Shown here one piece after another: positions 17,083-20,753 of a stretch of 22,278 bases of DNA (its first letter is position 1; each line of letters starts with the position of its first letter). This DNA is from a virus. Below the pieces are notes generated by a model that saw nothing but the letters and a program-made list of their open reading frames with translations, did no database searches and had not been told where the DNA came from. The translations under genes and the position numbers were made by a program. The stretch is from the IMG/VR virus record IMGVR_UViG_3300021957_000348, positions 1-22,278 of that record; one strand, 5' to 3'.

Positions 17083-17098
17083 TATAGTTATTTATGTC
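17083..17098 (-). promoter_or_regulatory. late promoter for the gp48-led unit, overlapping gp4 start
   Basis: On the minus strand this reads GACATAAATAACTATA, a close match to the T4 late octamer (CATAAATA at 17096-17089). The gp48 ATG is about 30 nt downstream. The complementary strand of the same bases supplies the gp4 start codon (17094-17096), so the divergent arms share DNA here. Confidence 0.65.
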
Positions 17099-17549
17099 TT
17101 ATAAAGGAAAGTTTAGACCGAAGAATCCAAATAAGTACAAAGGGAATCCTACAAACATTATTTATCGTTCATTATTAGAGCGTAGATTCATGGTTTACTT
17201 GGATAACAATCCTTCTGTACTTAAGTGGGGATCAGAAGAAATCATTATACCTTATATATCACCGGTAGACAATCGTTTGCACAGATATTTTCCAGACTTC
17301 TATATGAAGTATCGGAACGCCAAAGGCATGATAGTAGAAGAACTGATTGAAGTTAAACCTTTCAGTCAATGTTCACCACCCAATCCAAAGAAGAAACTTA
17401 CAAAGACAGGTAGAACATCTAAGCGATATCTTAAAGAAGTACAAACTTATATGGTTAATGAAGCTAAATGGACTCAAGCTATGTCGTTTTGTAAAGATCG
17501 TAATTGGAAATGGAGAATTCTTACAGAAAAGGATATAAACATCTATTAG
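17094..17549 (+). CDS. 4: head completion protein gp4 (TnsA-like nuclease fold)
   Basis: 151 residues, almost the same as T4 gp4 (150). It aligns along its length from memory: SYKGKFRPKNPNKYKGNP versus the T4 start, then NIIYRSLLERRFMVYLDNNP, LKWGSEEIIIPYISPVDNRL, HRYFPDFYMKY, and the C-terminal TKTGRTSKRYLKEVQTYMVN, KWRILTEKDI. Glu29, Asp68 and the Glu86-x-Lys88 pair fit a PD-(D/E)XK-type nuclease site. In T4, gp4 (also called gp50) is required for head completion after DNA packaging, just before tail joining. It heads the plus-strand arm, 33 bp from the divergent gp48. No Shine-Dalgarno or convincing plus-strand late promoter precedes it; the start is fixed by family alignment. Confidence 0.92.
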   Translation: MSYKGKFRPKNPNKYKGNPTNIIYRSLLERRFMVYLDNNPSVLKWGSEEIIIPYISPVDNRLHRYFPDFYMKYRNAKGMIVEELIEVKPFSQCSPPNPKKKLTKTGRTSKRYLKEVQTYMVNEAKWTQAMSFCKDRNWKWRILTEKDINIY

Positions 17550-17617: not shown

Positions 17618-18238
17618 ATGAATAAATTATTAGTATTATTAAGTAGTGTACTATTGAGTACATCTACATTAGCAATGAGTGGTCATGTTGGAATCAGCAC
17701 TGACTATATGTGGCGTGGTCAAACACAAACTGATCATGGACTAGCAGTGAACTTTGGTATAGAACAAGACCTTGGTCAAGGTTTTTATATAGGTAACTGG
17801 AACTCAAGCGTTGATATAGACGGTGATAGAGAGTTAGAGTCTGACTTTTTCGGTGGATACACAAAATCATTTGATTCAGGTTTCTGGTTCAATGGTGAGT
17901 ATATCGCTTATCGTTATAGTGGAGACAACTCTGACGGTTTAGAGTTTGAAGAAAGAATCTTCCAAGTAGGATATGAATCTTTTTCATACGGTAAAGCTGA
18001 AGGTGTTGACTTAGACATGGATTATGAATGGTATAACATTGGTTTACCTTTCATCTCATGGGCTGATGTCAGCTTAGAACTTGGAGAATGGTCTGATGGT
18101 AGAGAAGTCAAGATGTTAAAAGCTGATTGGTCTTTATCTGATAGCATGACTCTAGGATTACTTGTAATGAGTGATGTTAAAGAAAGTGAAGTTGAATTTG
18201 GAGACGCTGTGTCTTTACATTTCACTCATAAATTTTAA
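17618..18238 (+). CDS. outer-membrane beta-barrel (TorF/Gcw_chp-like putative porin)
   Basis: 206 residues with a classic signal peptide: MNKLLVLLSSVLLSTSTLA, probable cleavage after Ala19. The mature start SGHVGISTDYMWRGQTQTDH matches the putative porin family TIGR02001/Gcw_chp (STDY-x-WRG-x-Q-T-D), followed by GFYIGNWNSSVDID, DFFGGYTKSF, and alternating aromatic/polar strands. It ends in LHFTHKF, with the C-terminal Phe recognised by the outer-membrane assembly machinery. It would be exported and inserted in the host outer membrane, not the virion. Family members are cellular proteins of unclear transport role; in a phage it could act in superinfection exclusion, permeability or release. 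Strong AGGAG ribosome site and its own late promoter. Length is slightly short for the family. Family call good; function unknown. Confidence 0.75.
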   Translation: MNKLLVLLSSVLLSTSTLAMSGHVGISTDYMWRGQTQTDHGLAVNFGIEQDLGQGFYIGNWNSSVDIDGDRELESDFFGGYTKSFDSGFWFNGEYIAYRYSGDNSDGLEFEERIFQVGYESFSYGKAEGVDLDMDYEWYNIGLPFISWADVSLELGEWSDGREVKMLKADWSLSDSMTLGLLVMSDVKESEVEFGDAVSLHFTHKF

Positions 18239-18250
18239 GAGTTTATAATT

Positions 18251-18829
18251 ATGGCTGGGAGACTATTCGACAAACTTGAACAAGAAGCGTTCAGAGCTGG
18301 TATAGCCGCTCGAACAAAAGCTTCAATGGAATGGTTTCGTTCCACAGTAAGTAACAGAAAAGTCTCTCGAGCCGCTTTGATTGGTGATGGTCCGACACGA
18401 TCAAGACAAGTATATGGATCTATGTACAATTTTCAATATGATCCTAAGACAAAACAAACATTACCATACTATGATAGGTTTCCGTTATGTATCCCTGTTC
18501 AGAAAGCCAAAGGTGGTTTTTATGGACTTAATTTACATTACTTACACCCTTTAATTAGGGCACAATTTTTAGATGAGTTATACGACATTACGAACAATAG
18601 CAAATACGATAGAACAACAAAGATGAATGTAACTTATCAACTATTAAAGAGTACATCAAGAATGAGATTCTTTAAACCATGTTTAAAACATTATTTGAGT
18701 AATCAAATACAATCACCATTATTATTAATAGAACCAGCTGACTGGGAGATAGCTATCTTCTTACCAACAGAATCATTTAGAAAAGTTGATAAGAATACAG
18801 TCTGGAATGAAAGTAGGAGTAAATTTTAA
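18251..18829 (+). CDS. conserved T4-like morphogenesis-region protein, unassigned
   Basis: 192 residues. A basic, helical N-terminus (residues 1-40, AGRLFDKLEQEAFRAGIAAR) is followed by a conserved-looking core: LPYYDRFPLCIPVQKAKGGF, YGLNLHYLHPLIRAQFLDEL, and later MRFFKPCLKHYLSN and PADWEIAIFLPTESFRK. I have the impression this YDRFP/GLNLHYL pattern recurs in T4-like phages but cannot tie it to a T4 gene; gp2 or gp3 (tail or head completion) are possible by neighbourhood with gp4. There is no signal peptide or membrane segment. AAGAG overlapping the porin stop serves as ribosome site 9 nt before the ATG, and its stop overlaps the next start (TAATG), so the three genes are one unit. Confidence 0.55.
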   Translation: MAGRLFDKLEQEAFRAGIAARTKASMEWFRSTVSNRKVSRAALIGDGPTRSRQVYGSMYNFQYDPKTKQTLPYYDRFPLCIPVQKAKGGFYGLNLHYLHPLIRAQFLDELYDITNNSKYDRTTKMNVTYQLLKSTSRMRFFKPCLKHYLSNQIQSPLLLIEPADWEIAIFLPTESFRKVDKNTVWNESRSKF

Positions 18830-19425
18830 TGAACATAAACAGATTTATGAATCATATGGATTCTATGAGTAGAAGTGATAGATTCAATATAGAGATTCGT
18901 GGACCACAGAATATCAGAAGTAGAGGTCTTAGATGTACAGCTGTAACAACACCAGGTAAAACTATAGCTACAACTGGTAAGAATTATGGTGGTGCTACAC
19001 CAGAGAGACCTTATGTAACTGGTGTTGAATATGAAAATAAAATTACAGCTACATTTATGTTAGACACAACATTTGAAGATAAACAATTATTTGAACTCTG
19101 GCAGAGTTATATGTATGACGAAGCATACAATCTTCAATATCCAGATAAGTATCATGGTTCTGTTAAGATAGATCAATTAGGTGTTGACAATATACCATTA
19201 TATTCAGTAGAATTACACGAAGCGTTTCCATCTAATGTAACAGGTGTAGCGTTTACAGCTGAAGCCACTACAGTACAGACATTTGATGTTGAGTTCTCAT
19301 TTAGAACCTGGAGTTCTTCATTCGAAAATTCACCAAGTGGATTACTCGGCGGATTGTTCAATAAGAAAATGAGAAAGATAAGATCAAGACTTGATAAGAA
19401 AGTAAATGATAAATTGTTCGGATAA
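18829..19425 (+). CDS. tail-tube-fold protein (gp19/gp54-like)
   Basis: 198 residues. Segments such as SDRFNIEIRGPQNIRSRGLR, CTAVTTPGKTIATTGKNYGG, then VEYENKITATFMLDTTFEDK, LFELWQSYMYD and the late strand TVQTFDVEFSFRTW give the layout of the T4 gp19 tail-tube family: two beta sheets, an extended loop and a helix with the WQ motif. T4 gp19 is 163 residues and gp54 (tube initiator) 320. In T4-like genomes the tube gene is normally beside the sheath gene (gp18), which is not in this window, so this copy may be the gp54-type initiator or a second tube-like protein. The basic C-terminal tail (KKMRKIRSRLDKKVNDKLFG) is not typical of tube subunits and supports a specialised role. The ATG overlaps the upstream stop. 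Confidence 0.65.
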   Translation: MNINRFMNHMDSMSRSDRFNIEIRGPQNIRSRGLRCTAVTTPGKTIATTGKNYGGATPERPYVTGVEYENKITATFMLDTTFEDKQLFELWQSYMYDEAYNLQYPDKYHGSVKIDQLGVDNIPLYSVELHEAFPSNVTGVAFTAEATTVQTFDVEFSFRTWSSSFENSPSGLLGGLFNKKMRKIRSRLDKKVNDKLFG

Positions 19426-19465: not shown

Positions 19466-20173
19466 ATGGCGTTACCAGTACTTGACACACCTAAACATAG
19501 TTGTGTCTTACCATCATCTGGTGAAACAGTCACTTATAGACCGTTTCTAGTTGGTGAACAAAAAGTGTTATTAGTAGCACAAGAATCAGAAAACACTAAT
19601 GAACAAATTAGTGAAATGATTAGATTGATTAATGTATGTTGTGATGATATGGATGCTAATGAATTAGCAACTATTGATTTAGAATATTTATTTTTACAGT
19701 TGAGAATTAAATCAGTTGGTGAAACAGCTGATGTACAAATGGAATGTGAACATTGTAAAGAACTTAATAAAGTTACAGTACAATTAGAACAAACCATTGT
19801 AGAAGAACCTGAACAAGTAATAGATCATGTAGTTAAGATTACAGATACTATTAGTATTGATTTAAAGACACCGAGTTATCAAATTGTTAATTCAGTAAAT
19901 TTAAATAATTCAGAAGACCCAAAAGTAATTTTTGAAGTTGTATCTAAGTGTATTAATTCAATTATTGACGGAGATGAGATTCATACTAGAGATGATTTCT
20001 CTGATAAAGAACTAATGAGTTTTTTAGATAGCATGTCCATGGATATGTTTGAAAAGATTCAAGCGTTCTTTGTTAATGTCAAAAAATTGAAAATTAACGG
20101 AAGTTATGATTGTGAAAAATGTGGAGAGAATAATTCGTATGAATTAGTGGGTATCGGAAATTTTTTCGGCTAA
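19466..20173 (+). CDS. gp26-family baseplate/tail assembly protein (0-frame product)
   Basis: 235 residues (T4 gp26 is 208). The N-terminus (LPSSGETVTYRPFLVGEQKV, then LLVAQESENTNEQISEMIRL) is characteristic of the T4_baseplate family (gp26/gp51 type), followed by LATIDLEYLFLQLRIKSVGE. Two cysteine pairs, CEHC (94-97) and CEKC (216-219), could form one zinc-ribbon-like site. In T4 this family acts in baseplate hub assembly and is not well understood. The frame ends at GNFFG with a TAA immediately after two slippery heptamers, and the -1 frame continues for 66 codons, so this is probably the short form of a frameshifted pair. Its late motif and ribosome site are clear. Position ahead of a tape-measure-like gene agrees with a chaperone role (inference). 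Confidence 0.8.
   Translation: MALPVLDTPKHSCVLPSSGETVTYRPFLVGEQKVLLVAQESENTNEQISEMIRLINVCCDDMDANELATIDLEYLFLQLRIKSVGETADVQMECEHCKELNKVTVQLEQTIVEEPEQVIDHVVKITDTISIDLKTPSYQIVNSVNLNNSEDPKVIFEVVSKCINSIIDGDEIHTRDDFSDKELMSFLDSMSMDMFEKIQAFFVNVKKLKINGSYDCEKCGENNSYELVGIGNFFG
20158..20167 (+). promoter_or_regulatory. -1 programmed frameshift slippery site
   Basis: In the 0 frame this reads gg-A AAT TTT TTC. It contains two overlapping X-XXY-YYZ heptamers: A AAT TTT (20158-20164) and T TTT TTC (20161-20167). Slippage on either gives the same protein, continuing as FRLTLSHESL. It lies 4-7 bases before the 0-frame TAA at 20171. Confidence 0.75.
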
Positions 20174-20364
20174 CCCTCTCTCATGAAAGTCTATATAATT
20201 TGATTCATACAAACTTCGGTTTGATGCAACATCATAAGTACAGTTTAACAGAACTGAACTATATGATACCCTGGGAGAGGGAAGTATATGTTCAACTTCT
20301 AATGAAACATTTAGAAGAAGAAGAACAGCGTCAAAAGAACGCTGAGTCTAAAATGAGGAGATAG
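20164..20364 (+). CDS. frameshift extension of the gp26-family gene (fusion 19466-20364, 299 residues)
   Basis: Read in the -1 frame from 20164, 66 codons run to TAG at 20362: FRLTLSHESLYNLIHTNFGL, MQHHKYSLTELNYMIPWERE, VYVQLLMKHLEEEEQRQKNA and a basic end. No usable independent start exists: the frame is closed by TGA at 20140, the first ATG (20224) is inside the conserved-looking part, and there is no Shine-Dalgarno. The PWERE-VY helix and the acidic coiled tail look like the T part of lambda-type GT chaperones. Expression by -1 frameshifting gives a 299-residue fusion. The short piece also resembles separately annotated small proteins after gp26 in marine T4-like phages (from memory). Confidence 0.72.
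   Translation, partial: FRLTLSHESLYNLIHTNFGLMQHHKYSLTELNYMIPWEREVYVQLLMKHLEEEEQRQKNAESKMRR
20174..20281 (+). promoter_or_regulatory. long-range stem downstream of the slippery site
   Basis: CCCTCTCTCA (20174-20183) pairs with TGGGAGAGGG (20272-20281) over 10 bp, including one G-U. The stem starts 6 nt after T TTT TTC (9 nt after A AAT TTT), the spacing usual for frameshift stimulators. The 88-nt loop holds a CAAAC-TTCG-GTTTG hairpin (20210-20223) with a UUCG tetraloop. Confidence 0.55.
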
Positions 20365-20366
20365 AA

Positions 20367-20753
20367 ATGGCAGAAGATCATAGAGATAGATTTTCAGGTG
20401 ACATGAGTCGCAACGAAGTAGAAATAGACCTTAAAAAGTTTATGGAGATGGTTACTGAAAATAACGATCTCAAAAGAGAAATATTTGAATTAACAAACGA
20501 AGATAGAAAGAACCCATGGCAGAAATGGGTATTCGCAGCTAAGACAATAGATGCTTGGAGAATTATTCCAAGACTATTCTTAGGTATCTATATGTACTTA
20601 CTATACTTCGCGACATTCTGGTTTATGGATTTACCAGAACCTTCACTAGAACAATCAGGATTGATTTCAATTTTAGTCGGAGCTGGAGCAGCTTGGTTTG
20701 GACTATACACATCTAGTGCAGCTAAAGAACATGGTGACAATAACCCTAACTAG
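20367..20753 (+). CDS. two-helix membrane protein between assembly chaperone and tape measure
   Basis: 128 residues. Residues 18-45 are charged and helical, possibly coiled-coil (VEIDLKKFMEMVTENNDLKR). Two hydrophobic segments follow: about 66-87 (IIPRLFLGIYMYLLYFATFW) and 96-116 (SGLISILVGAGAAWFGLYTS), joined by the short turn DLPEPSLEQ, giving a hairpin with both ends on the same side. I recall similar DAWRIIPRL/GAGAAWFGLY proteins in marine phage genomes, usually annotated as hypothetical. A holin-like or membrane-targeting role is possible from topology, and a tail-tip protein inserted in the host membrane is another; neither is shown. Strong GAGGAGAT ribosome site overlapping the end of the frameshift extension; the ATG is 2 nt beyond its stop, so they are one operon. 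Confidence 0.6.
   Translation: MAEDHRDRFSGDMSRNEVEIDLKKFMEMVTENNDLKREIFELTNEDRKNPWQKWVFAAKTIDAWRIIPRLFLGIYMYLLYFATFWFMDLPEPSLEQSGLISILVGAGAAWFGLYTSSAAKEHGDNNPN

Follow-up and report, generated by a model that had tools for sequence, protein, structure and literature searches.

How many proteins does a phage make from a gene whose last codons would allow a ribosome to slip back into another open frame? We addressed this question for the gp26 gene of a 22,278-base IMG/VR virus record (hereafter the window, meaning this whole stretch of DNA), which carries the tail module of a T4-like marine phage.

A slippery sequence at the end of gp26

The 3′ end of the gp26 gene, AAATTTTTTC, is phased for −1 slippage, its last codons being GGA AAT TTT TTC GGC TAA. 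The original prediction had named two overlapping slippery heptamers near this stop codon, an open −1 frame running past it, and an extension ending 2 nucleotides ahead of the next gene, and all three were borne out (Table 1). Both heptamers are phased in the 0 frame so as to allow −1 tandem slippage, the −1 frame (which has stops at 20131 and 20140) then stays open to a TAG at 20362–20364, and the next ATG follows at 20367. The product of the extension reads FFRLTLSHESLYNLIHTNFGLMQHHKYSLTELNYMIPWEREVYVQLLMKHLEEEEQRQKNAESKMRR, and the junction peptide would be the same, GNFFRLT, from either heptamer.

Table 1. Features of the gp26 locus and its surroundings, in window coordinates.
Feature	Position	Strand	Basis or remark
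Head closure gp4-like gene	17094–17549		
DNA end protector gp2-like gene	18251–18829		
Tail tube gp19-like gene	18829–19425		
gp26 gene, 235 aa; putative short chaperone form (TAC-N, G-like)	19466–20173	+	PF12322, phrog_150, AlphaFold2 model
Second, overlapping heptamer A AAT TTT	20158–20164	+	Not conserved; seen in just 10 of 89 loci
Slippery heptamer T TTT TTC	20161–20167	+	Conserved; in phase, T TTT TTN kept across junctions
−1 frame extension (gp51 family, putatively T-like), read after the slip	20161–20364	+	phrog_634; new codons from 20167
gp26 0-frame stop TAA	20171–20173	+	
Internal ATG in the −1 frame, the gp51 start used by databases in relatives	20224–20226	+	Probably not the true start
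128-aa gene, probably a membrane protein (hydrophobic stretches by eye)	20367–20753	+	phrog_10198, E 5.3e-20, unknown function
Probable gene for the tape measure protein, truncated where the contig ends	20764–22278	+	Several tape measure families match weakly (best E 1.1e-4)

Taken alone, the window was weak evidence, because 4.5% of codon shuffles of gp26 produced some canonical heptamer at the very end of the gene. gp26 was the only one of the 16 window genes with an in-phase heptamer within 10 nucleotides of its stop. The sequence case for frameshifting is carried by conservation and not by the window alone.

In most long-tailed phages such a pair lies just upstream of the tape measure gene. 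The window agrees with this location, except that the small gene for the 128-residue putative membrane protein intervenes; a tape measure gene is annotated at the corresponding place in HTVC008M and Cr30. HTVC008M, Syn33, Melnitz and phiM7 have a small gene at this same position. Elsewhere among the structural genes, a plus-strand gene (17618–18238) separating the head closure gene from that of the DNA end protector encodes a 206-residue protein with a signal-peptide-like start that belongs to the bacterial Gcw_chp outer-membrane family (PF09694, E 8.4e-15); only six phage records had even weak similarity to it, one of which is annotated as a TorF family putative porin. Rfam and tRNA scans of the window returned no matches.

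The slip site is conserved across gp26 loci

Comparison with related gp26 loci, the check suggested alongside the original prediction, found T TTT TTN at the same residue and in 0-frame tandem-slippage phase in 89 of 90 different junctions. Only L053 departs from this pattern, with GTGTTTTCG, which may reflect an error in the sequence. A AAT TTT, present in only 10 of these 89 loci, was rejected as the conserved slip site. The last base of the heptamer was C in 65 junctions, T in 16 and A in 8, and the stop codon followed at a distance of 3 nucleotides in 71, 0 in 12, 6 in 2 and 24 in 4. The longest spacing is seen in Pelagibacter phage Mosig (L094 2501–2534) and in some IMG/VR loci (L017, L033 and L079), in which the gp26 frame extends 24 nucleotides beyond the heptamer, so that the short form would have a tail of ~8 extra residues.

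Conservation extended to synonymous positions. The codon preceding the two Phe codons of the heptamer always ended in T despite encoding different residues (S, A, D or N), and the first Phe codon was always TTT, with nominal log10 P values of −22 and −17, respectively, under a null that took synonymous usage from the genes themselves and ignored the relatedness of the loci.

Because the IMG/VR loci had been found partly through a peptide pattern containing FF, a selection bias, we assembled an independent set of 15 named phages picked by gp26 matches alone. The heptamer was present in 12 of them (Syn33, HTVC008M, KVP40, Cr30, phiM7, pf16, Aeh1, LPCS28, Mendera, XG4, SRB7757 and 65.2), a Nitratidesulfovibrio phage being among the carriers. 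The window itself is an uncultured marine member of this group, with 30–38% gp26 identity to named relatives. The remaining 3 of the 15 gp26-bearing phages, Vibrio phages 207E48.1 and K364 and Pseudomonas phage Cygsa01, lacked T TTT TTN while keeping gp26 and a −1-frame gp51-like ORF, which in these phages starts at an ATG overlapping the gp26 stop (L091 3190–3402, L112 2690–2905 and L110 2270–2482).

The −1 extension belongs to the gp51 family and is under selection from the slip site onward

Residues 2–65 of the extension matched positions 56–119 of the 121-position profile phrog_634, the gp51 family annotated as 'baseplate hub assembly catalyst' (E 4.5e-25), and the extension also matched the C-terminal end of the gp26 profile phrog_150. 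It aligned with residues 200–244 of T4 gp51 (E 9.7e-5), and tblastn located it in 598 phage records and in at least 600 stretches of IMG/VR. When the extension was scanned against Pfam, only chance matches resulted. Structure prediction for the extension alone yielded three helices at middling confidence (pLDDT 71.5).

Eighteen codons separate the slip site from an internal ATG in the −1 frame. Over this interval none of 89 loci had a −1-frame stop, compared with an average of ~2 in each of the other two frames, and differences among loci were concentrated at third positions of the −1 frame, with a pN/pS of 0.28 in that frame versus 1.26 and 1.59 in the others. These patterns indicate that the −1 frame is conserved as protein already upstream of any conserved ATG.

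The extension had been predicted to have no workable start of its own, which proved reasonable but not absolute. An in-frame TTG (20200) and the ATG at 20224 do exist in the window, and an ATG at about the equivalent of 20224 was present in 85 of 89 loci; 62 of these 85 lacked a Shine-Dalgarno match of at least 3 nucleotides, unlike most starts of gp26 and of the next gene, which have one. Because selection on the −1 frame begins upstream and most of the ATGs lack a Shine-Dalgarno match, the annotated gp51 start at the internal ATG, as found in the Syn33 and HTVC008M records, is probably an annotation artefact. The records of Aeh1, LPCS28, Aeromonas phage 65.2 and S-WAM1 contain a conserved −1 extension with no gene annotated (L089 3241–3420, L095 3172–3351, L109 2681–2850 and L092 2501–2700).

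gp26 is predicted to have a tail assembly chaperone fold

Residues 9–234 of gp26 matched positions 2–218 of the 219-position PF12322 profile (E 1.6e-53; 182 bits against a cut-off of 24.5), and the protein also matched phrog_150 (E 1.3e-56). For its AlphaFold2 model (pLDDT 90.9), the top three solved-structure matches were 3fgx, 2ob9 (HK97 gp13) and 3klu (YqbN), with Z scores of 7.2–7.4 over ~84 N-terminal residues and the next row at 4.6. All three best-matched proteins, HK97 gp13, YqbN and rbstp2171, have been named tail assembly chaperones (PMC9603447). The match is persuasive because all three top structures are chaperones and stand above the other rows; because Z values below 8 could by themselves reflect a common arrangement, we consider the model-based case for a chaperone (TAC-N) fold in the N-terminal domain good but not overwhelming. 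Foldseek also listed 2ob9 (probability ~0.8, E of 0.5 and more), and searching PDB sequences with the gp26 profile gave nothing beyond chance matches. Two CxxC pairs in the part of the window's gp26 that follows this domain (at ~94–97 and 217–220) suggest a zinc ribbon; a C-terminal CPxCG is found in the T4, KVP40 and Aeh1 proteins and is absent from those of Syn33, HTVC008M and Mosig.

Relationship to T4 gp26 and gp51 and to lambda G/GT

In T4, the same parts are arranged differently. T4 gp26 (208 aa) consists of the gp26 domain alone and ends in GLKEFFELL, with GAG TTC TTT GAG at the position of the slip site, and T4 gp51 (249 aa) contains the same domain plus the extension in one frame (phrog_150 over residues 3–248 and phrog_634 over 147–246). 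These two baseplate hub assembly proteins therefore look, by sequence, like a short and a long form produced from separate paralogous genes. They share with the window the PF12322 domain and the C-terminal extension; unlike in the window, they are encoded by two separate, divergently oriented genes, and gene 26 has no slip site. The gene tree grouped T4-type gp26 with T4-type gp51, apart from the frameshift types (support 98/96), in a tree whose root is arbitrary and some of whose rows are long-branched. T4 gp51 is required yet missing from the final particle (PMC3004832).

The lambda locus, which precedes the tape measure gene, produces a short protein and, at a low level, a −1 extension of it encoded at the gene's 3′ end, and this G/GT arrangement is widely conserved among long-tailed phages, 'except T4' (PMC5009743). 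The window has these elements in common with lambda and differs in its slip site (T TTT TTC), in the greater length of gp26, which has an extra C-terminal part after the chaperone domain, and in the one small gene ahead of the tape measure. A similar slip motif, compared by motif alone, occurs in other phage families, the Vandenendeviridae and Andersonviridae, in whose TAC locus, as in phage Adele, a −1 frameshift is predicted at a conserved GTTTTT motif ending TAC-N (PMC12846349).

Sequences around the slip site that might stimulate frameshifting

A Shine-Dalgarno-like stimulator upstream of the slip site is the arrangement known from dnaX. Across the group, the mean length of the upstream Shine-Dalgarno-like match was 4.27 nucleotides, compared with 4.09 (sd 0.057) in a synonymous null, a slight but consistent excess, and where a Glu codon lay 10–13 nucleotides upstream of the slip site it was GAG in 42 of 62 cases, compared with 31% GAG elsewhere in these genes. 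This modest signal fits a dnaX-like upstream stimulator; the window's own match is weak, at 3 nucleotides.

Downstream, the RNA just past the slip site had a mean structure z score of −1.9 across 41 loci, with values that were very uneven. In cyanophage S-WAM1 (L092 2508–2572), L026 and L035, very stable stem-loops (about −22 to −27 kcal/mol) directly follow the slip site; they are absent from the window. These strong stem-loops notwithstanding, no downstream fold was common to the loci: no significant downstream structure was found in the window, and RNAalifold on 89 ungapped junctions returned no consensus structure. Two candidates were set aside. Pairing of AGTCT with AGACT was better in register than slid, yet had only a slight advantage over +1, and conserved residues are its probable cause; a UUCG-looped hairpin noticed by eye at 20210–20223 did not reach significance when the window was folded (z 0.5 to −0.5).

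A model for the locus and its alternatives

We propose, with a probability of roughly 0.92, that this locus supplies a marine T4-like phage with its tail assembly chaperone pair, gp26 (TAC-N) and a frameshifted gp26–gp51 fusion (TAC-NC). Most ribosomes would stop at the TAA at 20171 and release the short form, the counterpart of lambda gpG. A minority would move back by a single nucleotide at T TTT TTC, with both Phe tRNAs re-pairing on TTT TTT, and would bypass the stop in the −1 frame, yielding a fusion of ~300 residues that resembles gpGT and has the junction GNFF/RLTL. Following the lambda analogy, many short and few long copies would coat the tape measure, and the extension, like gpT, would recruit tail-tube subunits. 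That gp26 is the G-like part and the extension the T-like part, as originally predicted, is supported by the phased heptamer, selection on the extension, gp51 homology, the chaperone fold and the gp51 fusion of T4. The conserved slip site, this selection, the homology and the fold have direct support from sequence and structure comparison, and the frameshift itself, with its rate, the long-to-short ratio and the binding partners, is inferred.

The main alternatives concern how the extension is translated. It might be translated independently as a short protein that is never fused to gp26, with ribosomes starting at the internal ATG or reinitiating once past the gp26 stop, as the ATG in 85 of 89 loci, its use in the Syn33 and HTVC008M annotations, and an ATG overlapping the gp26 stop in KVP40, Cr30 and phiM7 might suggest. 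But the −1 frame is conserved at the codon level from the slip site onward, starting 18 codons ahead of that ATG, most of the internal ATGs have no Shine-Dalgarno match, T4 gp51 holds both parts in one chain, and the heptamer would be kept for no reason; we regard separate synthesis as quite improbable. We are less skeptical of a combination, although we still consider it unlikely, in which the fusion is accompanied by the extension as a free peptide, initiated internally or at an overlapping start codon, making three products. The conserved internal Met, the overlapping ATG in a few heptamer-bearing phages, and the precedent for extra starts in this family set by T4 gene 26, annotated with an internal-start product 26′, all agree with it, but the Met is part of a helical stretch that is itself conserved and may be retained for the sake of the protein, and no Shine-Dalgarno match precedes it in most loci.

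The remaining alternatives concern the T run itself. Stuttering of the polymerase could produce mixed mRNAs and so replace ribosomal frameshifting, and runs of 6 to 8 T at the site are compatible with such slippage; however, 73 of 89 runs are 6 T only, which is short for polymerase slippage, and the run is held in tandem-slippage phase with the stop at a near-constant 0–6 nucleotides in 85 of 89 loci, making this explanation very improbable. An accidental heptamer and an accidental open frame at an AT-rich gene end would agree with the 4.5% of shuffles that place a heptamer this near the end, but chance is refuted by the gp51 homology, the 89/90 conservation and the purifying selection in the −1 frame, and we treat it as negligible.

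Translational frameshifting at T TTT TTC remains our preferred reading for the window, and the family as a whole prompts a more tentative one, which we consider possible rather than probable: T4-like phages may obtain the short and long chaperone parts by at least three routes. Frameshifting might serve most lineages, among them those infecting SAR11, cyanobacteria, Caulobacter and a sulfate reducer; the T4 type might rely on a short gene and a separate fused one; and in Vibrio phages 207E48.1 and K364 and Pseudomonas phage Cygsa01 the extension ORF with the overlapping ATG might work as a separate subunit.

Relation to previous work and implications

The TAC genes of T4-like phages were reportedly identified by Vladimirov, Gautam and Davidson in 2022 (Virology 566:9-15, doi 10.1016/j.virol.2021.11.003), so the original suggestion that frameshifting in the gp26 family was undescribed is out of date. 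Where PRFect cites that study, it is for T4-like phages in which a longer fused gene accompanies the short one, in place of frameshifting (PMC10885494), and a second citing paper credits it with poly-T slippery signals in the TAC-N genes of T4-like phages (PMC12846349). Judging from these citations, this kind of frameshift is not new, and the genes in question are by every indication the same as the window's gp26 and gp51. What the present analysis adds is the distribution of the slip site, the conservation tests, the modest upstream Shine-Dalgarno-like signal, the lack of a common downstream hairpin and a sub-lineage without the slip site.

A 2010 comparison of cyanophages found gp51 at ~20% of its usual length, with the first ~200 residues missing, and Aeh1 without gp51, and recorded these observations with no mention of frameshifting (PMC3037559). 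Both are explained if frameshifting joins gp26 to the extension: the missing ~200 residues of cyanophage gp51 would come from gp26, and Aeh1 does carry a −1 ORF after gp26. In several of the records that we examined gp51 is annotated as truncated or is missing, and annotating a joined CDS would put this right. Within the family there is also a natural series in which to ask why T4 swapped frameshifting for two genes.
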